DNA from: Tridacna crocea
Taxonomy: Eukaryota; Mollusca; Bivalvia; Cardiida; Cardiidae
NCBI GenBank assembly: GCA_943736015.1
Contig: OX031065.1
Span: forward strand, 23,078,427-23,142,426
Direction of reading: 5' to 3'
DNA length: 64,000 nt
Within the stretch, counting starts at the first letter, position 1, and each line of letters opens with the position of its first letter. The notes under the pieces were generated by a model. It was not told the origin of the DNA. It worked only from the letters and a program-made list of their open reading frames with translations, and ran no database searches. The position numbers and the translations under genes were made by a program. This document shows, in pieces, positions 1 through 22,513 of the stretch.

Positions 1-10
1 TTTTTTTTTT

Positions 11-157
11 AACTGGAAAAAGTTTCCGCAACAGCAACCCGTTGCTTCTGAATTCTATGTTTTTGCGCAGCAGTTAAACCTAACATTGACTTTTGACTCG
101 CAAGGTCACCAAAATTGACCCTGGTAAGAAAACAGGGAAACATTCGGTTTACCTTTC
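11..157 (+). repeat. Submodule Z of the unit (diverged ~140-bp monomer)
   Basis: Aligns with module A about 140 bp downstream: GCAACAG at 28 matches GCAACAG at 168, TTGCGCAGCAGTTAAACC matches ATGCGCAGCACGTAACC, and ACCAAAATTGACCCTGGT matches ACCAAATCAATGGCCCTAGT. It also holds three short perfect inverted repeats: GGAAA-AAG-TTTCC, AGCAAC-CC-GTTGCT and CCCTG-N9-CAGGG. It is the most diverged of the six modules, and its left limit is approximate. Confidence 0.65.
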
Positions 158-313
158 TTTGATTTGTGCAACAGGTAGCAGTTGCCTCCGAAAGTGTCCG
201 AGTTGAGTTTACAATTTTATGCGCAGCACGTAACCATCACGTATGGGGGACATAGTCATCGTAACCAAATCAATGGCCCTAGTGAGAGAAAACGAAAAAG
301 AAAAATCCCTATG
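158..313 (+). repeat. Submodule A of the unit (~156 bp)
   Basis: Starts at TTTGATTTGTGCAACAG. Shares with module D the order GCGC/TGCG, GTAAC, CACGTATG, then GTA(A/G)-rich sequence and AATGG. In this module the CGAAAAAG to CAAAAAAG change, a CpG transition, separates units U4, U5, U7, U8, U10, U12, U16, U37 and U40 from the rest. Confidence 0.7.
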
Positions 314-495
314 ATTGACTTGAATGACAGACCTGTCGTCTGCTACAAAATGTTCCATAAGTCCATGTTTCATGTTTTCGCGGATGCGTAAATGGCGCCT
401 ATGAGACGGTAGTCAACGTAAATGGTTTGTTGCCATGGTATAAAGACAACGGAGGGGAAAAAAAAAAAAAAATGTCGGAAATTTTGTTCCCTACA
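314..495 (+). repeat. Submodule B of the unit (~182 bp)
   Basis: Starts at ATTGACTT and aligns closely with module C. Shared strings include TCGTCTGC, AAATGTTCC, TTCATGTTTT, CGCGGAT, CGTAAGTGG/CGTAAATGG, CACCTATGAGA, GACGGTAGTC, ACGTAAATGG and GGTATAAAGA. It is longer than C mainly because of a 15-base A-run. The trinucleotide after AAATGG splits the array: GCG in U1, U3, U6 and U11; GCA in other left-hand units; GAA in U9, U14, U15 and U18-U40. Confidence 0.85.
458..472 (+). repeat. Variable A-run in module B
   Basis: Fifteen A residues follow GGAGGGG in U1. The run varies between units and is responsible for most 1-5 bp differences in unit length. It is interrupted by a single G in U5 and U10 (same position), in U29, and in U31 and U32 (same position), so the interruptions mark units that descend from one another. 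Module C has the shorter GAGAGAAAAAATATATT at the aligned place, so this is a local expansion rather than a retroposon tail. Confidence 0.9.
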
Positions 496-671
496 TTTGA
501 CTTAAGAAACATGTGTCGTCTGCCACGAAATGTTCCCTGAGTCGATTTTTCATGTTTTTCGCGGATACGTAAGTGGCACCTATGAGAGACGGTAGTCTAC
601 GTAAATGGGTATGTCGTCACGGTATAAAGAGATTGGAGAGAAAAAATATATTAGAAATTTAGTTCTCTTTG
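496..671 (+). repeat. Submodule C of the unit (~176 bp)
   Basis: Starts at TTTGACTT. It is the closest relative of module B and is linked to D by GTAACTGGCACGTATGA / GTAAGTGGCACCTATGA and by GACGGTAGTC / AACGGTAGTC. CpG is dense here, with six CG within 541-601. Confidence 0.85.
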
Positions 672-847
672 TTTGACTTATGCAGTTGCTACTGAAAGAG
701 TCTTCAGTCTTTTTTTAGCCACTTGTCACATTATTTCCTGGTGTTTTCGCATGTGCGTAACTGGCACGTATGAAACGGTAGTCAATGTAACTGGGTTTCC
801 TGTTGCGGTTTGAAGAGATTAGAAGAATTACGCTTCAATGCCCTTTG
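672..847 (+). repeat. Submodule D of the unit (~176 bp)
   Basis: Starts at TTTGACTT, 176 bp after the same motif in C. GGTTTGAAGAGATTAG at 807 aligns with GGTATAAAGAGATTGG at 621 in module C, so the TATA-like string there has been lost or never arose. Its first ~60 bp are nearly identical to part of module E. Confidence 0.85.
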
Positions 848-1015
848 TTTGATTCATGCAATAGGAATCAATTGCTACTGAAAGAGTATCCAGTCTTTTT
901 TTAGCCACTTGTCACATTCATTTCTGGGTTTTTTGCACTGTACATTGATGATTTTGGCTTATTCAATGTGCAGAATTTAATGTGGTCTGAGTCAGAAAAT
1001 CTAATTAAGGGATAA
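848..1015 (+). repeat. Submodule E of the unit (~168 bp, CpG-depleted)
   Basis: Starts at TTTGATTC. The segment TTGCTACTGAAAGAGT ... GCCACTTGTCACATT at about 872-920 repeats 686-734 of module D almost exactly, offset by a 10-bp insertion. Later parts align weakly: GTGGTCTGAGTCAG with GCGGTTTGAAGAG. Unlike A-D it contains no CG dinucleotide in U1. The right limit is approximate. Confidence 0.7.
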
Positions 1016-1155
1016 AGGGGCATCAAGGGTTTATTTCAAGGGAAGTAACTCTTGCAGGGGGGCTTGAAAAGACCAAAACAAGGTCTTCTGCCACCCTGTT
1101 CTCTTAAATTTTGGCCCTTTTTCAGTGAAATCTGGCATGTGTGGATGGTGCATGC

Positions 1156-1170
1156 CTGGCAGTTTGCCAA
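1156..1170. promoter_or_regulatory. NFI/CTF-like palindrome, one per unit
   Basis: CTGGCAGTTTGCCAA fits the known NFI dimer consensus YTGGCA-N3-TGCCAR at every fixed position. It is retained in all units inspected, and in U26 a C-to-T change makes it fully palindromic (TTGGCAGTTTGCCAA). That NFI binds here is inference: a 15-bp palindrome could also be chance fixed by homogenisation. Confidence 0.45.
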
Positions 1171-1252
1171 GGACTGCACAGCATCCTTCAAAGGAGACTT
1201 TAAATCCACTTTTATGCCATTTTTTGTTCACTGTTTTCTATTGATATATTAG

Positions 1253-1264
1253 GGCGCCATTTTG
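1253..1264 (-). promoter_or_regulatory. YY1/E2F-like element next to the CCAAT cluster
   Basis: On the minus strand this reads CAAAATGGCGCC, close to the YY1 core AANATGGCG and containing a GGCGCC E2F-like half. It lies 19-30 bp from the first CCAAT box, and GATATATTA (1243-1251) lies just beyond it. This order would suit a minus-strand promoter reading towards lower coordinates, but no transcript evidence exists here. Confidence 0.3.
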
Positions 1265-1280
1265 AAGTAATTTTCAAGCT

Positions 1281-1387
1281 CTCTGATTGGCTGATTGGGC
1301 CCAGCTTTGAATTTCTCGAAGCCTCTGATTGGCTGACTGGGCCCAGCTTTGAATTTCTCGAAGCCTCTGATTGGCTGACTGGGCCCC
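1281..1387 (+). repeat. 42-bp minisatellite inside the unit (2 full copies + 23 bp)
   Basis: Copies at 1281-1322 and 1323-1364, then a partial copy 1365-1387. Each begins CTCTGATTGG and ends TTTCTCGAAGC. The first copy has GATTGGGCCC and later ones GACTGGGCCC. Five units (U6, U7, U11, U20, U22) have only one full copy. The CTCGAAG to CTCAAAG change, a CpG transition, marks the first copy in many units. Confidence 0.95.
1283..1376 (-). promoter_or_regulatory. Cluster of three perfect inverted CCAAT (NF-Y) boxes, 42 bp apart
   Basis: CTGATTGGCT occurs at 1283-1292, 1325-1334 and 1367-1376. Its complement AGCCAATCAG fits the NF-Y consensus RRCCAATCAG perfectly. A fourth, weaker match CTGATTGGGC overlaps at 1291. 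The 42-bp spacing is about four helical turns, so the sites face the same side of the DNA. NF-Y acts in either orientation, so no transcription direction follows. The match to consensus is seen; binding is inferred. Confidence 0.55.
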
Positions 1388-1616
1388 ATGCTGATTTCCT
1401 TATTAACCTTTTACCACACAATGACGCCTTTTTACACACCCGAAAGAGAAAGCTTTTGAAAATAATCTGAGAAAAGGAGACAATGCAGGTTACCAACATT
1501 TTCTCCTTTTCCCACAATGTTTTCTACCCTATCGAAGAAAAAATGGATTATAGCTTATTCTTACGTCTTATTGTATCTTTATGGCCTATTTTCAAATTCT
1601 TCAAACTAGAACAAGA

Positions 1617-1627
1617 TTTTTCTTTTT
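1617..1627 (+). repeat. Terminal T-run of the unit
   Basis: An 11-base T-rich run between ACAAGA and AACTGG, interrupted by C in this unit. It is 9-12 pure T in most other units, changed to GAATTTTTTTT at the end of U26 and GATATTTTTTT at the end of U34. It contributes to length variation. Confidence 0.9.
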
Positions 1628-3244
1628 AACTGGAAAAAGTTTCCGCAACAGCAACCCGTTGCTTCTGAATTCTATGTTTTTGCGCAGCAGTTAAACCTAA
1701 CATTGACTTTTGACTCGCAAGGTCACCAAAATTGACCCTGGTAAGAAAACAGGGAAACATTCGGTTTACCTTTCTTTGATTTGTGCAACAGGTAGCAGTT
1801 GCCTCCGAAAGTGTCCGAGTTGAGTTTACAATTTTATGCGCAGCACGTAACCATCACGTATGGGGGACATAGTCATCGTAACCAAATCAATGGCCCTAGT
1901 GAGAGAAAACGAAAAAGAAAAATCCCTATGATTGACTTGAATGACAGACCTGTCGTCTGCTACAAAATGTTCCATAAGTCTATGTTTCATGTTTTCGCGG
2001 ATGCGTAAATGGCACCTATGAGACGGTAGTCAACGTAAATGGTTTGTTGCCATGGTATAAAGACAACGGAGGGGAAAAAAAAAAAAAAATGTCGGAAATT
2101 TTGTTCCCTACATTTGACTTAAGAAACATGTGTCGTCTGCCACGAAATGTTCCCTGAGTCGATTTTTCATGTTTTTCGCGGATACGTAAGTGACACCTAT
2201 GAGAGACGGTAGTCTACGTAAATGGGTATGTCGTCACGGTATAAAGAGATTGGAGAGAAAAAATATATTAGAAATTTAGTTCTCTTTGTTTGACTTATGC
2301 AGTTGCTACTGAAAGAGTCTTCAGTCTTTTTTTAGCCACTTGTCACATTATTTCCTGGTGTTTTCGCATGTGCGTAACTGGCACGTATGAAACGGTAGTC
2401 AATGTAACTGGGTTTCCTGTTGCGGTTTGAAGAGATTAGAAGAATTACGCTTCAATGCCCTTTGTTTGATTCATGCAATAGGAATCAATTGCTACTGAAA
2501 GAGTATTCGGTCTTTTTTTAGCCACTTGTCACATTCATTTCTGGGTTTTTTGCACTGTACATTGATCATTTTGGCTTATTCAATGTGCAGAATTTAATGT
2601 GGTCCGAGTCAGAAAATCTAATTAAGGGATAAAGGGGCATCAAGGGTTTATTTCAAGGGAAGTAACTCTTGCAGGGGGGCTTGAAAAGACCAAAACAAGG
2701 TCTTCTGCCACCCTGTTCTCTTAAATTTTGGCCCTTTTTCAGTGAAATCTGGCATGTGTGGATGGTGCATGCCTGGCAGTTTGCCAAGGACTGCACAGCA
2801 GCCTTCAAAGGAGACTTTAAATCCACTTTTATGCCGTTTTTTGTTCACTGTTTTCTATTGATATATTAGGGCGCCATTTTGAAGTAATTTTCAAGCTCTC
2901 TGATTGGCTGATTAGGCCCAGCTTTGAATTTCTCAAAGCCTCTGATTGGCTGACTGGGCCCAGCTTTGAATTTCTCGAAGCCTCTGATTGGCTGACTGGG
3001 CCCCATGCTGATTTCCTTATTAACCTTTTACCACACAATGACGCCTTTTTACACACCCGAAAGAGAAAGCTTTTGAAAATAATCTGAGAAAAGGAGACAA
3101 TGCAGGTTACCAGCATTTTCTCCTTTTCCCACAATGTTTTCTACCCTATCGAAGAAAAAATGGATTATTGCTTATTCTTACGTCTTATTGTATCTTTATG
3201 GCCTATTTTCAAATTCTTCAAACTAGAACAAGATTTTTTTTTTT
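1628..3244 (+). repeat. Satellite unit U2 (1,617 bp)
   Basis: Marked by AAGTGACACC near 2190 (shared with U3), GATTAGGCCC in the first minisatellite copy with CTCAAAG (shared with U5 and U10), and GTCCGAGTC near 2603. The private TATTCGGTC near 2505 is unusual in creating a CpG. Confidence 0.97.
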
Positions 3245-4862
3245 AACTGGAAAAAGTTTCCGCAACAGCAACCCGTTGCTTCTGAATTCTATGTTTTTGC
3301 GCAGCAGTTAAACCTAACATTGACTTTTGACTCGCAAGGTCACCAAAATTGACCCTGGTAAGAAAACAGGGAAACATTCGGTTTACCTTTCTTTGATTTG
3401 TGCAACAGGTAGCAGTTGCCTCCGAAAGTGTCCGAGTTGAGTTTACAATTTTATGCGCAGCACGTAACCATCACGTATGGGGGACATAGTCATCGTAACC
3501 AAATCAATGGCCCTAGTGAGAGAAAACGAAAAAGAAAAATCCCTATGATTGACTTGAATGACAGACCTGTCGTCTGCTACAAAATGTTCCATAAGTCCAT
3601 GTTTCATGTTTTCGCGGATGCGTAAATGGCGCCTATGAGACGGTAGTCAACGTAAATGGTTTGTTGCCATGGTATAAAGACAACGGAGGGGAAAAAAAAA
3701 AAAAAAATGTCGGAAATTTTGTTCCCTACATTTGACTTAAGAAACATGTGTCGTCTGCCACGAAATGTTCCCTGAGTCGATTTTTCATGTTTTTCGCGGA
3801 TACGTAAGTGACACCTATGAGAGACGGTAGTCTACGTAAATGGGTATGTCGTCACGGTATAAAGAGATTGGAGAGAAAAAATATATTAGAAATTTAGTTC
3901 TCTTTGTTTGACTTATGCAGTTGCTACTGAAAGAGTCTTCAGTCTTTTTTTAGCCACTTGTCACATTATTTCCTGGTGTTTTCGCATGTGCGTAACTGGC
4001 ACGTATGAAACGGTAGTCAATGTAACTGGGTTTCCTGTTGCGGTTTGAAGAGATTAGAAGAATTACGCTTCAATGCCCTTTGTTTGATTCATGCAATAGG
4101 AATCAATTGCTACTGAAAGAGTATTCAGTCTTTTTTTAGCCACTTGTCACATTCATTTCTGGGTTTTTTGCACTGTACATTGATCATTTTGGCTTATTCA
4201 ATGTGCAGAATTTAATGTGGTCTGAGTCAGAAAATCTAATTAAGGGATAAAGGGGCATCAAGGGTTTATTTCAAGGGAAGTAACTCTTGCAGGGGGGCTT
4301 GAAAAGACCAAAACAAGGTCTTCTGCCACCCTGTTCTCTTAAATTTTGGCCCTTTTTCAGTGAAATCTGGCATGTGTGGATGGTGCATGCCTGGCAGTTT
4401 GCCAAGGACTGCACAGCATCCTTCAAAGGAGACTTTAAATCCACTTTTATGCCATTTTTTGTTCACTGTTTTCTATTGATATATTAGGGCGCCATTTTGA
4501 AGTAATTTTCAAGCTCTCTGATTGGCTGATTGGGCCCAGCTTTGAATTTCTCGAAGCCTCTGATTGGCTGACTGGGCCCAGCTTTGAATTTCTCGAAGCC
4601 TCTGATTGGCTGACTGGGCCCCATGCTGATTTCCTTATTAACCTTTTACCACACAATGACGCCTTTTTACACACCCGAAAGAGAAAGCTTTTGAAAATAA
4701 TCTGAGAAAAGGAGACAATGCAGGTTACCAGCATTTTCTCCTTTTCCCACAATGTTTTCTACCCTATCGAAGAAAAAATGGATTATTGCTTATTCTTACG
4801 TCTTATTGTATCTTTATGGCCTATTTTCAAATTCTTCAAACTAGAACAAGATTTTTTTTTTT
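3245..4862 (+). repeat. Satellite unit U3 (1,618 bp)
   Basis: Has the GGCGCC variant in module B, the CCA/AGCATCC type in the core as in U1, and AAGTGACACC as in U2. Two full minisatellite copies. Confidence 0.97.
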
Positions 4863-6479
4863 AACTGGAAAAAGTTTCCGCAACAGCAACCCGTTGCTTC
4901 TGAATTCTATGTTTTTGCGCAGCAGTTAAACCTAACATTGACTTTTGACTCGCAAGGTCACCAAAATTGACCCTGGTAAGAAAACAGGGAAACATTCGGT
5001 TTACCTTTCTTTGATTTGTGCAACAGGTAGCAGTTGCCTCCGAAAGTGTCCGAGTTGAGTTTACAATTTTATGCGCAGCACGTAACCATCACGTATGGGG
5101 GACATAGTCATCGTAACCAAATCAATGGCCCTAGTGAGAGAAAACAAAAAAGAAAAATCCCTATGATTGACTTGAATGACAGACCTGTCGTCTGCTACAA
5201 AATGTTCCATAAGTCTATGTTTCATGTTTTCGCGGATGCGTAAATGGCACCTATGAGACGGTAGTCAACGTAAATGGTTTGTTGCCATGGTATAAAGACA
5301 ACGGAGGGGAAAAAAAAAAAAAAATGTCGGAAATTTTGTTCCCTACATTTGACTTAAGAAACATGTGTCGTCTGCCACGAAATGTTCCCTGAGTCGATTT
5401 TTCATGTTTTTCGCGGATACGTAAGTGGCACCTATGAGAGACGGTAGTCTACGTAAATGGGTATGTCGTCACGGTATAAAGAGATTGGAGAGAAAAAATA
5501 TATTAGAAATTTAGTTCTCTTTGTTTGACTTATGCAGTTGCTACTGAAAGAGTCTTCAGTCTTTTTTTAGCCACTTGTCACATTATTTCCTGGTGTTTTC
5601 GCATGTGCGTAACTGGCACGTATGAAACGGTAGTCAATGTAACTGGGTTTCCTGTTGCGGTTTGAAGAGATTAGAAGAATTACGCTTCAATGCCCTTTGT
5701 TTGATTCATGCAATAGGAATCAATTGCTACTGAAAGAGTATTCAGTCTTTTTTTAGCCACTTGTCACATTCATTTCTGGGTTTTTTGCACTGTACATTGA
5801 TCATTTTGGCTTATTCAATGTGCAGAATTTAATGTGGTCTGAGTCAGAAAATCTAATTAAGGGATAAAGGGGCATCAAGGGTTTATTTTAAGGGAAGTAA
5901 CTCTTGCAGGGGGGCTTGAAAAGACCAAAACAAGGTCTTCTGCCACCCTGTTCTCTTAAATTTTGGCCCTTTTTCAGTGAAATCTGGCATGTGTGGATGG
6001 TGCATGCCTGGCAGTTTGCCAAGGACTGCACAGCAGCCTTCAAAGGAGACTTTAAATCCACTTTTATGCCGTTTTTTGTTCACTGTTTTCTATTGATATA
6101 TTAGGGCGCCATTTTGAAGTAATTTTCAAGCTCTCTGATTGGCTGATTGGGCCCAGCTTTGAATTTCTCGAAGCCTCTGATTGGCTAACTGGGCCCAGCT
6201 TTGAATTTCTCGAAGCCTCTGATTGGCTGACTGGGCCCCATGCTGATTTCCTTATTAACCTTTTACCACACAATGACGCCTTTTTACACACCCGAAAGAG
6301 AAAGCTTTTGAAAATAATCTGAGAAAAGGAGACAATGCAGGTTACCAGCATTTTCTCCTTTTCCCACAATGTTTTCTACCCTATCGAAGAAAAAATGGAT
6401 TATTGCTTATTCTTACGTCTTATTGTATCTTTATGGCCTATTTTCAAATTCTTCAAACTAGAACAAGATTTTTTTTTTT
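4863..6479 (+). repeat. Satellite unit U4 (1,617 bp)
   Basis: Has CAAAAAAG in module A, TTTTAAGGG near 5887 (private), and GGCTAACTGGG in the second minisatellite copy near 6184, a change shared with U12 and U16. Confidence 0.97.
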
Positions 6480-8097
6480 AACTGGAAAAAGTTTCCGCAA
6501 CAGCAACCCGTTGCTTCTGAATTCTATGTTTTTGCGCAGCAGTTAAACCTAACATTGACTTTTGACTCGCAAGGTCACCAAAATTGACCCTGGTAAGAAA
6601 ACAGGGAAACATTCGGTTTACCTTTCTTTGATTTGTGCAACAGGTAGCAGTTGCCTCCGAAAGTGTCCGAGTTGATTTTACAATTTTATGCGCAGCACGT
6701 AACCATCACGTATGGGGGACATAGTCATCGTAACCAAATCAATGGCCCTAGTGAGAGAAAACAAAAAAGAAAAATCCCTATGATTGACTTGAATGACAGA
6801 CCTGTCGTCTGCTACAAAATGTTCCATAAGTCCATGTTTCATGTTTTCGCAGATGCGTAAATGGCACCTATGAGACGGTAGTCAACGTAAATGGTTTGTT
6901 GCCATGGTATAAAGACAACGGAGGGAAAAAAAAAAGAAAAAATGTCGGAAATTTTGTTCCCTACATTTGACTTGAGAAACATGTGTCGTCTGCCACGAAA
7001 TGTTCCCTGAGTCGATTTTTCATGTTTTTCGCGGATACGTAAGTGGCACCTATGAGAGACGGTAGTCTACGTAAATGGGTATGTCGTCACGGTATAAAGA
7101 GATTGGAGAGAAAAAATATATTAGAAATTTAGTTCTCTTTGTTTGACTTATGCAGTTGCTACTGAAAGAGTCTTCAGTCTTTTTTTAGCCACTTGTCACA
7201 TTATTTCCTGGTGTTTTCGCATGTGCGTAACTGGCACGTATGAAACGGTAGTCAATGTAACTGGGTTTCCTGTTGCGGTTTGAAGAGATTAGAAGAATTA
7301 CGCTTCAATGCCCTTTGTTTGATTCATGCAATAGGAATCAATTGCTACTGAAAGAGTATTCAGTCTTTTTTTAGCCACTTGTCACATTCATTTCTGGGTT
7401 TTTTGCACTGTACATTGATCATTTTGGCTTATTCAATGTGCAGAATTTAATGTGGTCCGAGTCAGAAAATCTAATTAAGGGATAAAGGGGCATCAAGGGT
7501 TTATTTCAAGGGAAGTAACTCTTGCAGGGGGGCTTGAAAAGACCAAAACAAGGTCTTCTGCCACCCTGTTCTCTTAAATTTTGGCCCTTTTTCAGTGAAA
7601 TCTGGCATGTGTGGATGGTGCATGCCTGGCAGTTTGCCAAGGACTGCACAGCAGCCTTCAAAGGAGACTTTAAATCCACTTTTATGCCGTTTTTTGTTCA
7701 CTGTTTTCTATTGATATATTAGGGCGCCATTTTGAAGTAATTTTCAAGCTCTCTGATTGGCTGATTAGGCCCAGCTTTGAATTTCTCAAAGCCTCTGATT
7801 GGCTGACTGGGCCCAGCTTTGAATTTCTCGAAGCCTCTGATTGGCTGACTGGGCCCCATGCTGATTTCCTTATTAACCTTTTACCACACAATGACGCCTT
7901 TTTACACACCCGAAAGAGAAAGCTTTTGAAAATAATCTGAGAAAAGGAGACAATGCAGGTTACCAGCATTTTCTCCTTTTCCCACAATGTTTTCTACCCT
8001 ATCGAAGAAAAAATGGATTATTGCTTATTCTTACGTCTTATTGTATCTTTATGGCCTATTTTCAAATTCTTCAAACTAGAACAAGATTTTTTTTTTT
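6480..8097 (+). repeat. Satellite unit U5 (1,618 bp)
   Basis: Shares with U10 the G-interrupted A-run near 6925-6940, CGCAGATG, ACTTGAGAAAC, GATTAGGCCC and GTCCGAGTC. U5 and U10 are about 7,996 bp apart and look like copies of one parent. Confidence 0.97.
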
Positions 8098-9673
8098 AAC
8101 TGGAAAAAGTTTCCGCAACAGCAACCCGTTGCTTCTGAATTCTATGTTTTTGCGCAGCAGTTAAACCTAACATTGACTTTTGACTCGCAAGGTCACCAAA
8201 ATTGACCCTGGTAAGAAAACAGGGAAACATTCGGTTTACCTTTCTTTGATTTGTGCAACAGGTAGCAGTTGCCTCCGAAAGTGTCCGAGTTGAGTTTACA
8301 ATTTTATGCGCAGCACGTAACCATCACGTATGGGGGACATAGTCATCGTAACCAAATCAATGGCCCTAGTGAGAGAAAACGAAAAAGAAAAATCCCTATG
8401 ATTGACTTGAATGACAGACCTGTCGTCTGCTACAAAATGTTCCATAAGTCCATGTTTCATGTTTTCGCGGATGCGTAAATGGCGCCTATGAGACGGTAGT
8501 CAACGTAAATGGTTTGTTGCCATGGTATAAAGACAACGGAGGGAAAAAAAAAAAAAAAAATGTCGGAAATTTTGTTCCCTACATTTGACTTAAGAAACAT
8601 GTGTCGTCTGCCACGAAATGTTCCCTGAGTCGATTTTTCATGTTTTTCGCGGATACGTAAGTGGCACCTATGAGAGACGGTAGTCTACGTAAATGGGTAT
8701 GTCGTCACGGTATAAAGAGATTGGAGAGAAAAAATATATTAGAAATTTAGTTCTCTTTGTTTGACTTATGCAGTTGCTACTGAAAGAGTCTTCAGTCTTT
8801 TTTTAGCCACTTGTCACATTATTTCCTGGTGTTTTCGCATGTGCGTAACTGGCACGTATGAAACGGTAGTCAATGTAACTGGGTTTCCTGTTGCGGTTTG
8901 AAGAGATTAGAAGAATTACGCTTCAATGCCCTTTGTTTGATTCATGCAATAGGAATCAATTGCTACTGAAAGAGTATTCAGTCTTTTTTTAGCCACTTGT
9001 CACATTCATTTCTGGGTTTTTTGCACTGTACATTGATCATTTTGGCTTATTCAATGTGCAGAATTTAATGTGGTCTGAGTCAGAAAATCTAATTAAGGGA
9101 TAAAGGGGCATCAAGGGTTTATTTCAAGGGAAGTAACTCTTGCAGGGGGGCTTGAAAAGACCAAAACAAGGTCTTCTGCCACCCTGTTCTCTTAAATTTT
9201 GGCCCTTTTTCAGTGAAATCTGGCATGTGTGGATGGTGCATGCCTGGCAGTTTGCCAAGGACTGCACAGCATCCTTCAAAGGAGACTTTAAATCCACTTT
9301 TATGCCATTTTTTGTTCACTGTTTTCTATTGATATATTAGGGCGCCATTTTGAAGTAATTTTCAAGCTCTCTGATTGGCTGATTGGGCCCAGCTTTGAAT
9401 TTCTCGAAGCCTCTGATTGGCTGACTGGGCCCCATGCTGATTTCCTTATTAACCTTTTACCACACAATGACGCCTTTTTACACACCCGAAAGAGAAAGCT
9501 TTTGAAAATAATCTGAGAAAAGGAGACAATGCAGGTTACCAGCATTTTCTCCTTTTCCCACAATGTTTTCTACCCTATCGAAGAAAAAATGGATTATTGC
9601 TTATTCTTACGTCTTATTGTATCTTTATGGCCTATTTTCAAATTCTTCAAACTAGAACAAGATTTTTTTTTTT
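8098..9673 (+). repeat. Satellite unit U6 (1,576 bp, one minisatellite copy lost)
   Basis: One full 42-bp copy at 9369-9410 plus the partial copy at 9411-9433. Core of the CCA/AGCATCC type, GGCGCC in module B, and a GAGGG plus long A-run shared with U11. Confidence 0.97.
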
Positions 9674-11249
9674 AACTGGAAAAAGTTTCCGCAACAGCAA
9701 CCCGTTGCTTCTGAATTCTATGTTTTTGCGCAGCAGTTAAACCTAACATTGACTTTTGACTCGCAAGGTCACCAAAATTGACCCTGGTAAGAAAACAGGG
9801 AAACATTCGGTTTACCTTTCTTTGATTTGTGCAACAGGTAGCAGTTGCCTCCGAAAGTGTCCGAGTTGATTTTACAATTTTATGCGCAGCACGTAACCAT
9901 CACGTATGGGGGACATAGTCATCGTAACCAAATCAATGGCCCTAGTGAGAGAAAACAAAAAAGAAAAATCCCTATGATTGACTTGAATGACAGACCTGTC
10001 GTCTGCTACAAAATGTTCCATAAGTCGATGTTTCATGTTTTCGCTGATGCGTAAATGGCACCTATGAGACGGTAGTCAACGTAAATGGTTTGTTGCCATG
10101 GTATAAAGACAACGGAGGGGAAAAAAAAAAAAAAATGTCGGAAATTTTGTTCCCTACATTTGACTTAAGAAACATGTGTCGTCTGCCACGAAATGTTCCC
10201 TGAGTCGATTTTTCATGTTTTTCGCGGATACGTAAGTGGCACCTATGAGAGACGGTAGTCTACGTAAATGGGTATGTCGTCACGGTATAAAGAGATTGGA
10301 GAGAAAAAATATATTAGAAATTTAGTTCTCTTTGTTTGACTTATGCAGTTGCTACTGAAAGAGTCTTCAGTCTTTTTTTAGCCACTTGTCACATTATTTC
10401 CTGGTGTTTTCGCATGTGCGTAACTGGCACGTATGAAACGGTAGTCAATGTAACTGGGTTTCCTGTTGCGGTTTTGAAGAGATTAGAAGAATTACGCTTC
10501 AATGCCCTTTGTTTGATTCATGCAATAGGAATCAATTGCTACTGAAAGAGTATTCAGTCTTTTTTTAGCCACTTGTCACATTCATTTCTGGGTTTTTTGC
10601 ACTGTACATTGATCATTTTGGCTTATTCAATGTGCAGAATTTAATGTGGTCTGAGTCAGAAAATCTAATTAAGGGATAAAGGGGCATCAAGGGTTTATTT
10701 CAAGGGAAGTAACTCTTGCAGGGGGGCTTGAAAAGACCAAAACAAGGTCTTCTGCCACCCTGTTCTCTTAAATTTTGGCCCTTTTTCAGTGAAATCTGGC
10801 ATGTGTGGATGGTGCATGCCTGGCAGTTTGCCAAGGACTGCACAGCATCCTTCAAAGGAGACTTTAAATCCACTTTTATGCCATTTTTTGTTCACTGTTT
10901 TCTATTGATATATTAGGGCGCCATTTTGAAGTAATTTTCAAGCTCTCTGATTGGCTGATTGGGCCCAGCTTTGAATTTCTCGAAGCCTCTGATTGGCTGA
11001 CTGGGCCCCATGCTGATTTCCTTATTAACCTTTTACCACACAATGACGCCTTTTTACACACCCGAAAGAGAAAGCTTTTGAAAATAATCTGAGAAAAGGA
11101 GACAATGCAGGTTACCAGCATTTTCTCCTTTTCCCACAATGTTTTCTACCCTATCGAAGAAAAAATGGATTATTGCTTATTCTTACGTCTTATTGTATCT
11201 TTATGGCCTATTTTCAAATTCTTCAAACTAGAACAAGATTTTTTTTTTT
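9674..11249 (+). repeat. Satellite unit U7 (1,576 bp, one minisatellite copy lost)
   Basis: One full 42-bp copy at 10945-10986 plus the partial copy. CGCTGATG in module A/B and CCA/AGCATCC in the core. A private extra T gives GCGGTTTTGAAG near 10470, which by itself opens a 69-codon frame (10336-10545) absent from every other unit. Confidence 0.97.
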
Positions 11250-12866
11250 AACTGGAAAAAGTTTCCGCAACAGCAACCCGTTGCTTCTGAATTCTATGTT
11301 TTTGCGCAGCAGTTAAACCTAACATTGACTTTTGACTCGCAAGGTCACCAAAATTGACCCTGGTAAGAAAACAGGGAAACATTCGGTTTACCTTTCTTTG
11401 ATTTGTGCAACAGGTAGCAGTTGCCTCCGAAAGTGTCCGAGTTGATTTTACAATTTTATGCGCAGCACGTAACCATCACGTATGGGGGACATAGTCATCG
11501 TAACCAAATCAATGGCCCTAGTGAGAGAAAACAAAAAAGAAAAATCCCTATGATTGACTTGAATGACAGACCTGTCGTCTGCTACAAAATGTTCCATAAG
11601 TCGATGTTTCATGTTTTCGCTGATGCGTAAATGGCACCTATGAGACGGTAGTCAACGTAAATGGTTTGTTGCCATGGTATAAAGACAACGGAGGGGAAAA
11701 AAAAAAAAAAATGTCGGAAATTTTGTTCCCTACATTTGACTTAAGAAACATGTGTCGTCTGCCACGAAATGTTCCCTGAGTCGATTTTTCATGTTTTTCG
11801 CGGATACGTAAGTGGCACCTATGAGAGACGGTAGTCTACGTAAATGGGTATGTCGTCACGGTATAAAGAGATTGGAGAGAAAAAATATATTAGAAATTTA
11901 GTTCTCTTTGTTTGACTTATGCAGTTGCTACTGAAAGAGTCTTCAGTCTTTTTTTAGCCACTTGTCACATTATTTCCTGGTGTTTTCGCATGTGCGTAAC
12001 TGGCACGTATGAAACGGTAGTCAATGTAACTGGGTTTCCTGTTGCAGTTTGAAGAGATTAGAAGAATTACGCTTCAATGCCCTTTGTTTGATTCATGCAA
12101 TAGGAATCAATTGCTACTGAAAGAGTATTCAGTCTTTTTTTAGCCACTTGTCACATTCATTTCTGGGTTTTTTGCACTGTACATTGATCATTTTGGCTTA
12201 TTCAATGTGCAGAATTTAATGTGGTCTGAGTCAGAAAATCTAATTAAGGGATAAAGGGGCATCAAGGGTTTATTTCAAGGGAAGTAACTTTTGCAGGGGG
12301 GCTTGAAAAGACCAAAACAAGGTCTTCTGCCACCCTGTTCTCTTAAATTTTGGCCCTTTTTCAGTGAAATCTGGCATGTGTGGATGGTGCATGCCTGGCA
12401 GTTTGCCAAGGACTGCACAGCAGCCTTCAAAGGAGACTTTAAATCCACTTTTATGCCGTTTTTTGTTCACTGTTTTCTATTGATATATTAGGGCGCCATT
12501 TTGAAGTAATTTTCAAGCTCTCTGATTGGCTGATTGGGCCCAGCTTTGAATTTCTCAAAGCCTCTGATTGGCTGACTGGGCCCAGCTTTGAATTTCTCGA
12601 AGCCTCTGATTGGCTGACTGGGCCCCATGCTGATTTCCTTATTAACCTTTTACCACACAATGACGCCTTTTTACACACCCGAAAGAGAAAGCTTTTGAAA
12701 ATAATCTGAGAAAAGGAGACAATGCAGGTTACCAGCATTTTCTCCTTTTCCCACAATGTTTTCTACCCTATCGAAGAAAAAATGGATTATTGCTTATTCT
12801 TACGTCTTATTGTATCTTTATGGCCTATTTTCAAATTCTTCAAACTAGAACAAGATTTTTTTTTTT
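11250..12866 (+). repeat. Satellite unit U8 (1,617 bp)
   Basis: CGCTGATG as in U7, AACTTTTGCAG near 12287 shared with U12, U13, U16 and U17, and a private CpG transition GTTGCAGTTTG at 12046. Confidence 0.97.
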
Positions 12867-14475
12867 AACTGGAAAAAGTTTCCGCAACAGCAACCCGTTG
12901 CTTCTGAATTCTATGTTTTTGCGCAGCAGTTAAACCTAACATTGACTTTTGACTCGCAAGGTCACCAAAATTGACCCTGGTAAGAAAACAGGGAAACATT
13001 CGGTTTACCTTTCTTTGATTTGTGCAACAGGTAGCAGTTGCCTCCGAAAGTGTCCGAGTTGATTTTACAATTTTATGCGCAGCACGTAACCATCACGTAT
13101 GGGGGACATAGTCATCGTAACCAAATCAATGGCCCTAGTGAGAGAAAACGAAAAAGAAAAATCCCTATGATTGACTTGAATGACAGACCTGTCGTCTGCT
13201 ACAAAATGTTCCATAAGTCCATGTTTCATGTTTTCGCGGATGCGTAAATGGAACCTATGAGACGGTAGTCAACGTAAATGGTTTGTTGCCATGGTATAAA
13301 GACAACGGAGGGGAAAAAAAAAAAAAAATGTCGGAAATTTTGTTCCCTACATTTGACTTAAGAAACATGTGTCGTCTGCCACGAAATGTTCCCTGAGTCG
13401 ATTTTTCATGTTTTTCGCGGATACGTAAGTGGCACCTATGAGAGACGGTAGTCTACGTAAATGGGTATGTCGTCACGGTATAAAGAGATTGGAGAGAAAA
13501 AATATATTAGAAATTTAGTTCTCTTTGTTTGACTTATGCAGTTGCTACTGAAAGAGTCTTCAGTCTTTTTTTAGCCACTTGTCACATTATTTCCTGGTGT
13601 TTTCGCATGTGCGTAACTGGCACGTATGAAACGGTAGTCAATGTAACTGGGTTTCCTGTTGCGGTTTGAAGAGATTAGAAGAATTACGCTTCAATGCCCT
13701 TTGTTTGATTCATGCAATAGGAATCAATTGCTACTGAAAGAGTATTCAGTCTTTTTTTAGCCACTTGTCACATTCATTTCTGGGTTTTTTGCACTGTACA
13801 TTGATCATTTTGGCTTATTCAATGTGCAGAATTTAATGTGGTCTGAGTCAGAAAATCTAATTAAGGGATAAAGGGGCATCAAGGGTTTATTTCAAGGGAA
13901 GTAACTCTTGCAGGGGGGCTTGAAAAGACCAAAACAAGGTCTTCTGCCACCCTGTTCTCTTAAATTTTGGCCCTTTTTGAGTGAAATCTGGCATGTGTGG
14001 ATGGTGCATGCCTGGCAGTTTGCCAAGGACTGCACAGCAGCCTTCAAAGGAGACTTTAAATCCACTTTTATGCCGTTTTTTGTTCACTGTTTTCTATTGA
14101 TATATTAGGGCGCCATTTTGAAGTAATTTTCAAGCTCTCTGATTGGCTGATTGGGCCCAGCTTTGAATTTCTCGAAGCCTCTGATTGGCTGATTGGGCCC
14201 AGCTTTGAATTTCTCGAAGCCTCTGATTGGCTGACTGGGCCCCATGCTGATTTCCTTATTAACCTTTTACCACACAATGACGCCTTTTTACACACCCGAA
14301 AGAGAAAGCTTTTGAAAATAATCTGAGAAAAGGAGACAATGCAGGTTACCAGCATTTTCCAACAATGTTTTCTACCCTATCGAAGAAAAAATGGATTATT
14401 GCTTATTCTTACGTCTTATTGTATCTTTATGGCCTATTTTCAAATTCTTCAAACTAGAACAAGATTTTTTTTTTT
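12867..14475 (+). repeat. Satellite unit U9 (1,609 bp, 8-bp deletion)
   Basis: First unit with AAATGGAACC. Has CTTTTTGAGTG near 13976, GATTGGGCCC in both minisatellite copies, and an 8-bp loss in TTTTCTCCTTTTCCCAC near 14357. Shares all of these with U14 and U18. ATTTTCCAACAATG is private to it. Confidence 0.97.
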
Positions 14476-16092
14476 AACTGGAAAAAGTTTCCGCAACAGC
14501 AACCCGTTGCTTCTGAATTCTATGTTTTTGCGCAGCAGTTAAACCTAACATTGACTTTTGACTCGCAAGGTCACCAAAATGGACCCTGGTAAGAAAACAG
14601 GGAAACATTCGGTTTACCTTTCTTTGATTTGTGCAACAGGTAGCAGTTGCCTCCGAAAGTGTCCGAGTTGATTTTACAATTTTATGCGCAGCACGTAACC
14701 ATCACGTATGGGGGACATAGTCATCGTAACCAAATCAATGGCCCTAGTGAGAGAAAACAAAAAAGAAAAATCCCTATGATTGACTTGAATGACAGACCTG
14801 TCGTCTGCTACAAAATGTTCCATAAGTCCATGTTTCATGTTTTCGCAGATGCGTAAATGGCACCTATGAGACGGTAGTCAACGTAAATGGTTTGTTGCCA
14901 TGGTATAAAGACAACGGAGGGAAAAAAAAAAGAAAAAATGTCGGAAATTTTGTTCCCTACATTTGACTTGAGAAACATGTGTCGTCTGCCACGAAATGTT
15001 CCCTGAGTCGATTTTTCATGTTTTTCGCGGATACGTAAGTGGCACCTATGAGAGACGGTAGTCTACGTAAATGGGTATGTCGTCACGGTATAAAGAGATT
15101 GGAGAGAAAAAATATATTAGAAATTTAGTTCTCTTTGTTTGACTTATGCAGTTGCTACTGAAAGAGTCTTCAGTCTTTTTTTAGCCACTTGTCACATTAT
15201 TTCCTGGTGTTTTCGCATGTGCGTAACTGGCACGTATGAAACGGTAGTCAATGTAACTGGGTTTCCTGTTGCGGTTTGAAGAGATTAGAAGAATTACGCT
15301 TCAATGCCCTTTGTTTGATTCATGCAATAGGAATCAATTGCTACTGAAAGAGTATTCAGTCTTTTTTTAGCCACTTGTCACATTCATTTCTGGGTTTTTT
15401 GCACTGTACATTGATCATTTTGGCTTATTCAATGTGCAGAATTTAATGTGGTCCGAGTCAGAAAATCTAATTAAGGGATAAAGGGGCATCAAGGGTTTAT
15501 TTCAAGGGAAGTAACTCTTGCAGGGGGGCTTGAAAAGACCAAAACAAGGTCTTCTGCCACCCTGTTCTCTTAAATTTTGGCCCTTTTTCAGTGAAATCTG
15601 GCATGTGTGGATGGTGCATGCCTGGCAGTTTGCCAAGGACTGCACAGCAGCCTTCAAAGGAGACTTTAAATCCACTTTTATGCCGTTTTTTGTTCACTGT
15701 TTTCTATTGATATATTAGGGCGCCATTTTGAAGTAATTTTCAAGCTCTCTGATTGGCTGATTAGGCCCAGCTTTGAATTTCTCAAAGCCTCTGATTGGCT
15801 GACTGGGCCCAGCTTTGAATTTCTCGAAGCCTCTGATTGGCTGACTGGGCCCCATGCTGATTTCCTTATTAACCTTTTACCACACAATGACGCCTTTTTA
15901 CACACCCGAAAGAGAAAGCTTTTGAAAATAATCTGAGAAAAGGAGACAATGCAGGTTACCAGCATTTTCTCCTTTTCCCACAATGTTTTCTACCCTATCG
16001 AAGAAAAAATGGATTATTGCTTATTCTTACGTCTTATTGTATCTTTATGGCCTATTTTCAAATTCTTCAAACTAGAACAAGTTTTTTTTTTT
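14476..16092 (+). repeat. Satellite unit U10 (1,617 bp)
   Basis: Close copy of U5 by the G-interrupted A-run, CGCAGATG, ACTTGAGAAAC, GATTAGGCCC and GTCCGAGTC. AATGGACCC near 14580 (AATTGACCC elsewhere) is private. Its T-run is preceded by CAAG without the usual A. Confidence 0.97.
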
Positions 16093-17668
16093 AACTGGAA
16101 AAAGTTTCCGCAACAGCAACCCGTTGCTTCTGAATTCTATGTTTTTGCGCAGCAGTTAAACCTAACATTGACTTTTGACTCGCAAGGTCACCAAAATTGA
16201 CCCTGGTAAGAAAACAGGGAAACATTCGGTTTACCTTTCTTTGATTTGTGCAACAGGTAGCAGTTGCCTCCGAAAGTGTCCGAGTTGAGTTTACAATTTT
16301 ATGCGCAGCACGTAACCATCACGTATGGGGGACATAGTCATCGTAACCAAATCAATGGCCCTAGTGAGAGAAAACGAAAAAGAAAAATCCCTATGATTGA
16401 CTTGAATGACAGACCTGTCGTCTGCTACAAAATGTTCCATAAGTCCATGTTTCATGTTTTCGCGGATGCGTAAATGGCGCCTATGAGACGGTAGTCAACG
16501 TAAATGGTTTGTTGCCATGGTATAAAGACAACGGAGGGAAAAAAAAAAAAAAAAATGTCGGAAATTTTGTTCCCTACATTTGACTTAAGAAACATGTGTC
16601 GTCTGCCACGAAATGTTCCCTGAGTCGATTTTTCATGTTTTTCGCGGATACGTAAGTGGCACCTATGAGAGACGGTAGTCTACGTAAATGGGTATGTCGT
16701 CACGGTATAAAGAGATTGGAGAGAAAAAATATATTAGAAATTTAGTTCTCTTTGTTTGACTTATGCAGTTGCTACTGAAAGAGTCTTCAGTCTTTTTTTA
16801 GCCACTTGTCACATTATTTCCTGGTGTTTTCGCATGTGCGTAACTGGCACGTATGAAACGGTAGTCAATGTAACTGGGTTTCCTGTTGCGGTTTGAAGAG
16901 ATTAGAAGAATTACGCTTCAATGCCCTTTGTTTGATTCATGCAATAGGAATCAATTGCTACTGAAAGAGTATTCAGTCTTTTTTTAGCCACTTGTCACAT
17001 TCATTTCTGGGTTTTTTGCACTGTACATTGATCATTTTGGCTTATTCAATGTGCAGAATTTAATGTGGTCTGAGTCAGAAAATCTAATTAAGGGATAAAG
17101 GGGCATCAAGGGTTTATTTCAAGGGAAGTAACTCTTGCAGGGGGGCTTGAAAAGACCAAAACAAGGTCTTCTGCCACCCTGTTCTCTTAAATTTTGGCCC
17201 TTTTTCAGTGAAATCTGGCATGTGTGGATGGTGCATGCCTGGCAGTTTGCCAAGGACTGCACAGCATCCTTCAAAGGAGACTTTAAATCCACTTTTATGC
17301 CATTTTTTGTTCACTGTTTTCTATTGATATATTAGGGCGCCATTTTGAAGTAATTTTCAAGCTCTCTGATTGGCTGATTGGGCCCAGCTTTGAATTTCTC
17401 GAAGCCTCTGATTGGCTGACTGGGCCCCATGCTGATTTCCTTATTAACCTTTTACCACACAATGACGCCTTTTTACACACCCGAAAGAGAAAGCTTTTGA
17501 AAATAATCTGAGAAAAGGAGACAATGCAGGTTACCAGCATTTTCTCCTTTTCCCACAATGTTTTCTACCCTATCGAAGAAAAAATGGATTATTGCTTATT
17601 CTTACGTCTTATTGTATCTTTATGGCCTATTTTCAAATTCTTCAAACTAGAACAAGATTTTTTTTTTT
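16093..17668 (+). repeat. Satellite unit U11 (1,576 bp, one minisatellite copy lost)
   Basis: One full 42-bp copy at 17364-17405 plus the partial copy at 17406-17428. Close copy of U6 (GGCGCC, same A-run, CCA/AGCATCC core). Confidence 0.97.
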
Positions 17669-19285
17669 AACTGGAAAAAGTTTCCGCAACAGCAACCCGT
17701 TGCTTCTGAATTCTATGTTTTTGCGCAGCAGTTAAACCTAACATTGACTTTTGACTCGCAAGGTCACCAAAATTGACCCTGGTAAGAAAACAGGGAAACA
17801 TTCGGTTTACCTTTCTTTGATTTGTGCAACAGGTAGCAGTTGCCTCCGAAAGTGTCCGAGTTGAGTTTACAATTTTATGCGCAGCACGTAACCATCACGT
17901 ATGGGGGACATAGTCATCGTAACCAAATCAATGGCCCTAGTGAGAGAAAACAAAAAAGAAAAATCCCTATGATTGACTTGAATGACAGACCTGTCGTCTG
18001 CTACAAAATGTTCCATAAGTCGATGTTTCATGTTTTCGCTGATGCGTAAATGGCACCTATGAGACGGTAGTCAACGTAAATGGTTTGTTGCCATGGTATA
18101 AAGACAACGGAGGGGAAAAAAAAAAAAAAATGTCGGAAATTTTGTTCCCTACATTTGACTTAAGAAACATGTGTCGTCTGCCACGAAATGTTCCCTGAGT
18201 CGATTTTTCATGTTTTTCGCGGATACGTAAGTGGCACCTATGAGAGACGGTAGTCTACGTAAATGGGTATGTCGTCACGGTATAAAGAGATTGGAGAGAA
18301 AAAATATATTAGAAATTTAGTTCTCTTTGTTTGACTTATGCAGTTGCTACTGAAAGAGTCTTCAGTCTTTTTTTAGCCACTTGTCACATTATTTCCTGGT
18401 GTTTTCGCATGTGCGTAACTGGCACGTATGAAACGGTAGTCAATGTAACTGGGTTTCCTGTTGCGGTTTGAAGAGATTAGAAGAATTACGCTTCAATGCC
18501 CTTTGTTTGATTCATGCAATAGGAATCAATTGCTACTGAAAGAGTATTCAGTCTTTTTTTAGCCACTTGTCACATTCATTTCTGGGTTTTTTGCACTGTA
18601 CATTGATCATTTTGGCTTATTCAATGTGCAGAATTTAATGTGGTCTGAGTCAGAAAATCTAATTAAGGGATAAAGGGGCATCAAGGGTTTATTTCAAGGG
18701 AAGTAACTTTTGCAGGGGGGCTTGAAAAGACCAAAACAAGGTCTTCTGCCACCCTGTTCTCTTAAATTTTGGCCCTTTTTCAGTGAAATCTGGCATGTGT
18801 GGATGGTGCATGCCTGGCAGTTTGCCAAGGACTGCACAGCAGCCTTCAAAGGAGACTTTAAATCCACTTTTATGCCGTTTTTTGTTCACTGTTTTCTATT
18901 GATATATTAGGGCGCCATTTTGAAGTAATTTTCAAGCTCTCTGATTGGCTGATTGGGCCCAGCTTTGAATTTCTCGAAGCCTCTGATTGGCTAACTGGGC
19001 CCAGCTTTGAATTTCTCGAAGCCTCTGATTGGCTGACTGGGCCCCATGCTGATTTCCTAATTAACCTTTTACCACACAATGACGCCTTTTTACACACCCG
19101 AAAGAGAAAGCTTTTGAAAATAATCTGAGAAAAGGAGACAATGCAGGTTACCAGCATTTTCTCCTTTTCCCACAATGTTTTCTACCCTATCGAAGAAAAA
19201 ATGGATTATTGCTTATTCTTACGTCTTATTGTATCTTTATGGCCTATTTTCAAATTCTTTAAACTAGAACAAGATTTTTTTTTTT
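17669..19285 (+). repeat. Satellite unit U12 (1,617 bp)
   Basis: First unit of the four-unit block. Marked by CGCTGATG, AACTTTTGCAG, GGCTAACTGGG, CCTAATTAACC near 19057 and TTCTTTAAAC near 19258. All are repeated in U16. Confidence 0.97.
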
Positions 19286-20904
19286 AACTGGAAAAAGTTT
19301 CCGCAACAGCAACCCGTTGCTTCTGAATTCTATGTTTTTGCGCAGCAGTTAAACCTAACATTGACTTTTGACTCGCAAGGTCACCAAAATTGACCCTGGT
19401 AAGAAAACAGGGAAACATTCGGTTTACCTTTCTTTGATTTGTGCAACAGGTAGCAGTTGCCTCCGAAAGTGTCCGAGTTGATTTTACAATTTTATGCGCA
19501 GCACGTAACCATCACGTATGGGGGACATAGTCATCGTAACCAAATCAATGGCCCTAGTGAGAGAAAACGAAAAAGAAAAATCCCTATGATTGACTTGAAT
19601 GACAGACCTGTCGTCTGCTACAAAATGTTCCATAAGTCCATGTTTCATGTTTTCGCAGATGCGTAAATGGCACCTATGAGACGGTAGTCAACGTAAATGG
19701 TTTGTTGCCATGGTATAAAGACAACGGAGGGAAAAAAAAAAAAAAAAAATGTCGGAAATTTTGTTCCCTACATTTGACTTGAGAAACATGTGTCGTCTGC
19801 CACGAAATGTTCCCTGAGTCGATTTTTCATGTTTTTCGCGGATACGTAAGTGGCACCTATGAGAGACGGTAGTCTACGTAAATGGGTATGTCGTCACGGT
19901 ATAAAGAGATTGGAGAGAAAAAATATATTAGAAATTTAGTTCTCTTTGTTTGACTTATGCAGTTGCTACTGAAAGAGTCTTCAGTCTTTTTTTAGCCACT
20001 TGTCACATTATTTCCTGGTGTTTTCGCATGTGCGTAACTGGCACGTATGAAACGGTAGTCAATGTAACTGGGTTTCCTGTTGCGGTTTGAAGAGATTAGA
20101 AGAATTACGCTTCAATGCCCTTTGTTTGATTCATGCAATAGGAATCAATTGCTACTGAAAGAGTATTCAGTCTTTTTTTAGCCACTTGTCACATTCATTT
20201 CTGGGTTTTTTGCACTGTACATTGATCATTTTGGCTTATTCAATGTGCAGAATTTAATGTGGTCTGAGTCAGAAAATCTAATTAAGGGATAAAGGGGCAT
20301 CAAGGGTTTATTTCAAGGGAAGTAACTTTTGCAGGGGGGCTTGAAAAGACCAAAACAAGGTCTTCTGCCACCCTGTTCTCTTAAATTTTGGCCCTTTTTC
20401 AGTGAAATCTGGCATGTGTGGATGGTGCATGCCTGGCAGTTTGCCAAGGACTGCACAGCAGCCTTCAAAGGAGACTTTAAATCCACTTTTATGCCGTTTT
20501 TTGTTCACTGTTTTCTATTGATATATTAGGGCGCCATTTTGAAGTAATTTTCAAGCTCTCTGATTGGCTGATTGGGCCCAGCTTTGAATTTCTCAAAGCC
20601 TCTGATTGGCTGACTGGGCCCAGCTTTGAATTTCTCGAAGCCTCTGATTGGCTGACTGGGCCCCATGCTGATTTCCTTATTAACCTTTTACCACACAATG
20701 ACGCCTTTTTACACACCCGAAAGAGAAAGCTTTTGAAAATAATCTGAGAAAAGGAGACAATGCAGGTTACCAGCATTTTCTCCTTTTCCCACAATGTTTT
20801 CTACCCTATCGAAGAAAAAATGGATTATTGCTTATTCTTACGTCTTATTGTATCTTTATGGCCTATTTTCAAATTCTTCAAACTAGAACAAGATTTTTTT
20901 TTTT
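19286..20904 (+). repeat. Satellite unit U13 (1,619 bp)
   Basis: CGCAGATG and ACTTGAGAAAC as in U5/U10, but with a pure A-run and AACTTTTGCAG as in U8, so it looks like a recombinant of those types. Repeated in U17. Confidence 0.97.
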
Positions 20905-22513
20905 AACTGGAAAAAGTTTCCGCAACAGCAACCCGTTGCTTCTGAATTCTATGTTTTTGCGCAGCAGTTAAACCTAACATTGACTTTTGACTCGCAAGGT
21001 CACCAAAATTGACCCTGGTAAGAAAACAGGGAAACATTCGGTTTACCTTTCTTTGATTTGTGCAACAGGTAGCAGTTGCCTCCGAAAGTGTCCGAGTTGA
21101 TTTTACAATTTTATGCGCAGCACGTAACCATCACGTATGGGGGACATAGTCATCGTAACCAAATCAATGGCCCTAGTGAGAGAAAACGAAAAAGAAAAAT
21201 CCCTATGATTGACTTGAATGACAGACCTGTCGTCTGCTACAAAATGTTCCATAAGTCCATGTTTCATGTTTTCGCGGATGCGTAAATGGAACCTATGAGA
21301 CGGTAGTCAACGTAAATGGTTTGTTGCCATGGTATAAAGACAACGGAGGGGAAAAAAAAAAAAAAATGTCGGAAATTTTGTTCCCTACATTTGACTTAAG
21401 AAACATGTGTCGTCTGCCACGAAATGTTCCCTGAGTCGATTTTTCATGTTTTTCGCGGATACGTAAGTGGCACCTATGAGAGACGGTAGTCTACGTAAAT
21501 GGGTATGTCGTCACGGTATAAAGAGATTGGAGAGAAAAAATATATTAGAAATTTAGTTCTCTTTGTTTGACTTATGCAGTTGCTACTGAAAGAGTCTTCA
21601 GTCTTTTTTTAGCCACTTGTCACATTATTTCCTGGTGTTTTCGCATGTGCGTAACTGGCACGTATGAAACGGTAGTCAATGTAACTGGGTTTCCTGTTGC
21701 GGTTTGAAGAGATTAGAAGAATTACGCTTCAATGCCCTTTGTTTGATTCATGCAATAGGAATCAATTGCTACTGAAAGAGTATTCAGTCTTTTTTTAGCC
21801 ACTTGTCACATTCATTTCTGGGTTTTTTGCACTGTACATTGATCATTTTGGCTTATTCAATGTGCAGAATTTAATGTGGTCTGAGTCAGAAAATCTAATT
21901 AAGGGATAAAGGGGCATCAAGGGTTTATTTCAAGGGAAGTAACTCTTGCAGGGGGGCTTGAAAAGACCAAAACAAGGTCTTCTGCCACCCTGTTCTCTTA
22001 AATTTTGGCCCTTTTTGAGTGAAATCTGGCATGTGTGGATGGTGCATGCCTGGCAGTTTGCCAAGGACTGCACAGCAGCCTTCAAAGGAGACTTTAAATC
22101 CACTTTTATGCCGTTTTTTGTTCACTGTTTTCTATTGATATATTAGGGCGCCATTTTGAAGTAATTTTCAAGCTCTCTGATTGGCTGATTGGGCCCAGCT
22201 TTGAATTTCTCGAAGCCTCTGATTGGCTGATTGGGCCCAGCTTTGAATTTCTCGAAGCCTCTGATTGGCTGACTGGGCCCCATGCTGATTTCCTTATTAA
22301 CCTTTTACCACACAATGACGCCTTTTTACACACCCGAAAGAGAAAGCTTTTGAAAATAATCTGAGAAAAGGAGACAATGCAGGTTACCAGCATTTTCCCA
22401 CAATGTTTTCTACCCTATCGAAGAAAAAATGGATTATTGCTTATTCTTACGTCTTATTGTATCTTTATGGCCTATTTTCAAATTCTTCAAACTAGAACAA
22501 GATTTTTTTTTTT
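20905..22513 (+). repeat. Satellite unit U14 (1,609 bp, 8-bp deletion)
   Basis: Same type as U9: AAATGGAACC, CTTTTTGAGTG, doubled GATTGGGCCC and the 8-bp loss near 22395. Repeated in U18. Confidence 0.97.

Follow-up and report, generated by a model that had tools for sequence, protein, structure and literature searches.

A 1.6-kb tandem repeat unit of Tridacna crocea combining diverged monomers with a CpG-poor core

Organisation of the array

The 64,000 nucleotides considered here come from the bivalve Tridacna crocea (assembly GCA_943736015.1, contig OX031065.1, positions 23,078,427 to 23,142,426 of the forward strand). We refer to this whole stretch as the window, and coordinates are those of the window unless they are said to be those of the consensus unit. 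The window is a single long satellite stretch, apparently without coding function, whose repeated unit we read as about 5.5 monomers followed by a ~696-bp core.

11..64000, + strand: tandem head-to-tail array, 39 complete units and a partial last one (40 unit starts)

Unit starts were located with a 30-base anchor, allowing up to four substitutions. Complete units number 39, range from 1,576 to 1,622 bp and have a consensus of 1,618 bp, whose position p corresponds to window position p+10 in unit 1, and to p+9 past a poly-A run near 448. Over aligned bases, the pairwise identity of the complete units is 0.9935 (99.35%) on average, with a minimum of 0.9845 and a maximum of 1.0. This long, near-identical, head-to-tail and apparently non-coding array, with 40 starts over 64 kb, is organised as a higher-order repeat (HOR) satellite.

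In the list of open reading frames for positions 1–5000, the same four frames (66–101 amino acids) recur in every unit, and the four from unit 1 have no Pfam match at E ≤ 0.1. A search of Rfam with 1–5000 returned six hits at E ≤ 5, every one under the gathering score, and ARAGORN finds no tRNA in the 64-kb window, so that an RNA gene is rejected for 1–5000. A phage or plasmid origin is unsupported, since blastn of unit 1 (11–1627) against phages and plasmids gave no match at E ≤ 0.01. Scans for exact patterns were empty for two of two patterns in genome contigs and for three of four in viral contigs; the single viral match is to a 19-base pattern, and the 401 bases around it, judged by eye, look unrelated and probably coding. 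A motif resembling AAGGGAGATAACTC, which we presumed to hint at a molluscan origin, was followed up by text searches of the literature, which gave no confirmation from mollusc-titled papers.

The modules

Each unit opens with ~920 bp of diverged monomers in a row, 140–183 bp each and labelled Z and A to E.

11..151, + strand: module Z; only the pair Z-A beats all 500 shuffles; held-out profile match of 28–29 bp, E = 0.023–0.026
152..309, + strand: module A; outscores every one of 500 shuffles when paired with Z, B, C, D or E; held-out profile E = 2.6e-6
310..491, + strand: module B; 75% identical to C, z = 31.6 against shuffles; held-out profile E = 2.9e-20
492..666, + strand: module C; held-out profile E = 1.7e-21
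667..842, + strand: module D, a mosaic whose right half is nearest B and C and whose left half is nearest E; held-out profile E = 4.4e-17
843..931, + strand: left half of module E, its secure part; 73 of 83 aligned positions (88%) identical to the left half of D
932..1627, + strand: non-modular core, ~696 bp, CpG-poor; none of 18 module–core pairs beats 500 shuffles

Local alignment of the six modules and of three core slices (180, 180 and 258 bp, starting at consensus position 1001) covered all 36 pairs, each against 500 dinucleotide shuffles; the module borders used were up to 3 bases off those listed above, and E was extended to 1000. Nine of the 15 module pairs outscore every shuffle (ZA, AB, AC, AD, AE, BC, BD, CD and DE). 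For the remaining six, the shuffles that score at least as well number 22 (ZB), 120 (ZC), 342 (ZD), 15 (ZE), 455 (BE) and 201 (CE). Of the module–core pairs, those closest to beating the shuffles involve the first core slice: 3 of 500 shuffles do at least as well as its pair with C, and 17 as its pair with B. Leave-one-out profiles recover most of A, B, C and D, and only the first 59 bp of E (E = 0.0012).

Compared half by half, the right half of D scores 39 with that of B and 42 with that of C, and the left half of D scores 56 with that of E (in each case, none of 400 shuffles does as well). The left half of D scores only 12 with that of B (23 of 400 shuffles) and 13 with that of C (4 of 400), and the right half of E fails to stand out from shuffles when aligned with B, C or D. 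Modules A–D are firm, Z depends mainly on its match to A, and of E the left half alone is secure.

In a multiple alignment, B and C are 75% identical, D and E 64%, C and D 63%, B and D 62%, Z and A 54%, and the other ten pairs 39–53%; these values (0.39–0.75) stand without a baseline for forced alignments. Within a unit the modules therefore share 0.39–0.75 of their positions, versus 0.985–1.000 between units, as in HOR satellites, which indicates that the divergence of the monomers preceded the amplification of the unit. Resemblance is greatest between the inner modules B and C, and the edge modules Z and E are the hardest to recognise, which is what a segment of an aged array should show.

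An earlier, sequence-only reading of this DNA had described six diverged monomers of ~140–182 bp in each unit. The modular row is borne out by the nine pairs that beat shuffles, and the count comes down to about 5.5 because the right half of E is unrecognised. The same half accounts for the difference between the non-modular core of ~610 bp described then and the ~696 bp found here; its non-modular character holds (0 of 18 pairs). The strings said to be shared by all six modules do not extend so far: the exact strings occur only in B, C and D. The worry that module alignments might be no better than those of shuffled sequence, especially for Z/A and E, is lifted for Z-A, A-E and D-E, and stays for the six pairs involving Z or E listed above. 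Tandem Repeats Finder (TRF), which that reading had proposed as a check, lists only 42-bp arrays at a minimum score of 50.

The core

The first ~80 bp of the core may be the decayed right half of E. Two further features lie within it.

1269..1386, + strand: 42-bp sub-repeat found by TRF (most units have 2.8 copies), carrying four ATTGG (inverted CCAAT) boxes as well as three GGGCCC sites
1458..1524, + strand: imperfect palindrome with 33-nt arms, 79% complementary; DNA fold z = −3.98, none of 200 shuffles equally stable

Six stretches were folded (z between −3.98 and −0.58), of which the palindrome gave the strongest result, and 42 bp of the sub-repeat are missing in five of the 39 units (U06, U07, U11, U20 and U22). 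Neither feature identifies the core. The core also contains, at 1037–1098, two adjacent hairpins (CAAGGG/CTCTTG and a 15-pair interrupted stem; DNA fold z = −2.68, none of 200 shuffles as stable), of which the centroid structure keeps only the second. In the consensus, 11 consecutive T close the unit, directly ahead of Z.

CpG content

The two parts of the unit differ in CpG: the observed/expected ratio (o/e) is 1.00 in consensus 1–922 versus 0.26 in 923–1618, with GpC counts of 33 and 37 (Fisher p = 1.3e-4; the boundary comes from the module data, and the test is post hoc, the contrast having already been seen). By part, the ratio is 0.82–1.64 in Z to D, 0 in E, and 0.09, 0.22 and 0.72 along the core. 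Between consensus positions 823 and 1208 (window ~832–1217), 386 bp of the consensus contain no CpG start.

Variation between copies bears on how these CpGs mutate. In consensus 1–833, a C–T or G–A variant is seen among the 39 copies at 17 of 72 CpG bases versus 13 of 264 other C or G bases (odds ratio 6.0, p = 9e-6), from which we infer that the CpGs of the modules mutate as if methylated. The core would have shed most of its CpGs before the amplification, and homogenisation would have preserved those of the monomers. Among the CpG bases listed, the most variable is the G at 382 (consensus 372, within TTTTCGCGG of module B), which is four-allelic (27 G, 5 A, 5 T and 2 C in 39 copies).

Array dynamics

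At a level above the unit, four consecutive units are duplicated exactly.

17652..24330, + strand: first copy of an exact 6,679-bp direct duplication, U12–U15, identical at an offset of 6,466
24118..30796, + strand: second copy, U16–U19, at the first-copy position plus the offset

This four-unit duplication would be a third tier of repetition unless it arose in the assembly. Two pairs of units, U06 with U11 and U36 with U39, do not differ at any aligned base, and an 8-bp deletion is common to U09, U14 and U18. Mean identity drops a little as units lie farther apart: it is 0.9942 for the 38 pairs at lag 1 and 0.9901 for the single pair at lag 38. The duplication of U12–U15 as U16–U19, together with the units that carry the 42-bp deletion, points to recent local exchange, and the pattern of the array fits local unequal exchange or conversion.

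Origin of the unit

We consider it very probable that the array is a composite higher-order satellite, in which an old monomer array fused with unrelated DNA and the fusion was amplified as one block, most likely in a eukaryote that methylates CpG. An ancestral single-monomer array (~140–183 bp, a length near nucleosomal) would have aged until its monomers differed by 25–61%. A segment of ~5.5 monomers would then have fused with ~700 bp of CpG-depleted DNA of unrelated sequence, and the joined block would have been amplified head to tail. The units would since have stayed near-identical through unequal exchange and conversion acting on one or several units at a time. This order of events, exchange as the mechanism and methylation in the germline are what the identities, the CpG content and the duplications suggest. 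The unit probably encodes no product and may have a structural role, in heterochromatin or of the centromere type.

Several observations weigh against this scenario. Six of the 15 module pairs fail to beat shuffles, and Z depends mainly on the pair Z-A. The depletion of CpG in the core is uneven, since the last third has an o/e of 0.72 at 33% GC, and E and the core (consensus 834–1618) show no excess of CpG transitions (1 of 14 versus 19 of 292). The CpGs of the monomers are retained at a rate similar to that of other dinucleotides or higher, D-E excepted: the shared fractions are 12/18 versus 200/332 for B-C, 8/16 versus 138/326 for C-D, 8/13 versus 132/336 for B-D, 6/16 versus 116/308 for A-C and 0/6 versus 178/330 for D-E (the numbers are small). 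Simple methylation decay does not predict such retention between diverged monomers, which might reflect an unmethylated past or constraint. Last, the exact four-unit duplication could come from the assembly.

Another explanation is that the unit is a tandemly amplified non-autonomous element of the Helentron type, with Z–E as its central repeats and the core as its right end, including the palindrome, joined to its left end. The oyster Cg_HINE elements do have satellite-like central repeats between unique flanks, the right one with a palindrome, and they insert at T-rich sites (PMC7492417); the core has its palindrome with 33-nt arms and the run of 11 T ahead of Z. However, inverted repeats of 11 bp with at most one mismatch (consensus 901–1618 plus 1–60) number 15, versus 1–16 in 20 shuffles, and nine of the 15 belong to the one palindrome; with a count within the range of shuffles, no subTIR pair (11–12 bp) can be told from chance. 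TRF, at the same minimum score as above, lists no HINE-type microsatellite in the window, and the ends of an element are not definable without dispersed copies, so that the palindrome cannot be assigned to a right flank. We regard this explanation as unlikely. It is similarly doubtful that a whole mobile element, with fused right and left ends in the core and its own aged monomer array, became a macrosatellite; if it did, the CpG-rich monomers and the CpG-poor core would record two methylation histories in one homogenised unit.

It is still less probable that the unit works as a transcribed or regulatory repeat, its core acting as a promoter with CCAAT boxes from which a non-coding RNA would run into the sequence next to it. 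The sub-repeat's four ATTGG boxes, one more such box in module C and two TATAAAG strings within unit 1 could be read in this way, but the boxes lie mostly inside a triplicated 42-mer and are not independent; neither the Rfam search nor the Pfam search described above gives a family. CCAAT boxes are also common in mobile elements.

That the shared strings are a chance or low-complexity likeness, in a simple 1.6-kb satellite, is barely credible in spite of the six failing pairs and of the right half of E: nine pairs outscore all shuffles, held-out profiles find A–D at E-values from 2.6e-6 to 1.7e-21, and together with the half-by-half scores these results contradict it for A, B, C, D and the left half of E.

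The composite satellite thus remains the explanation that we favour. The window is a clean 64-kb example of a higher-order satellite formed from an aged monomer array and foreign DNA, and the CpG contrast and the block duplications make the order of events partly readable from one window.

Comparison with known systems

Like this unit in plan, the primate alpha-satellite HORs consist of diverged ~170-bp monomers amplified as a near-identical block. The likeness to alpha satellite noted in the sequence-only reading stands for this plan (0.39–0.75 within versus 0.985–1.000 between units) and is confined to it. The nine fixed bases of the CENP-B box, scanned for with no shuffle control, have no exact match, the best sites reaching 7 of 9 (four of the eight sites listed, each with two mismatches: consensus 1112 on the + strand; 1106, 506 and 28 on the − strand). 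Unlike this unit, the standard alpha HOR is not known to contain a non-monomer core. Bovine satellite 1.711b, which has a composite nature, is a long satellite unit like the present one. Its length is given as ~2.6 kb (PMC7644632).

In bivalves, the oyster Cg170 arrays are reported to belong mainly to Helitron-type elements, and a BIV160 monomer of Donax to lie near a pearl-related MITE (PMC5139131). The Cg_HINE elements share with our unit satellite-like tandem repeats, unique flanking sequence, a palindrome and T-rich sites, but they are dispersed, whereas the repeat studied here forms a long homogeneous array with neither subTIR nor microsatellite demonstrated.

A close published precedent is found in Meloidogyne chitwoodi and M. 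fallax, whose HORs combine monomers of ~170–180 bp (32–86% mutual identity) with an uncharacterised U1 segment, are homogenised as a block (84–99%) and exist in long and short variants (PMC3694981). Compared by description only, the Meloidogyne HOR with U1 and our unit follow the same plan, monomers plus a non-monomer segment. Because a comparable composite HOR has already been published (PMC3694981), no principle is changed, and we file the unit under a known kind, composite HOR satellite DNA. What is new in this analysis is the CpG contrast, the excess of CpG transitions in the modules, the 42-bp sub-repeat and the four-unit duplication. The Meloidogyne HOR draws its monomers from several named satellites, whereas those of our unit belong to one diverged family as far as tested, and, unlike the Meloidogyne HOR, the T. 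crocea unit has a core that is ~700 bp long and CpG-poor.
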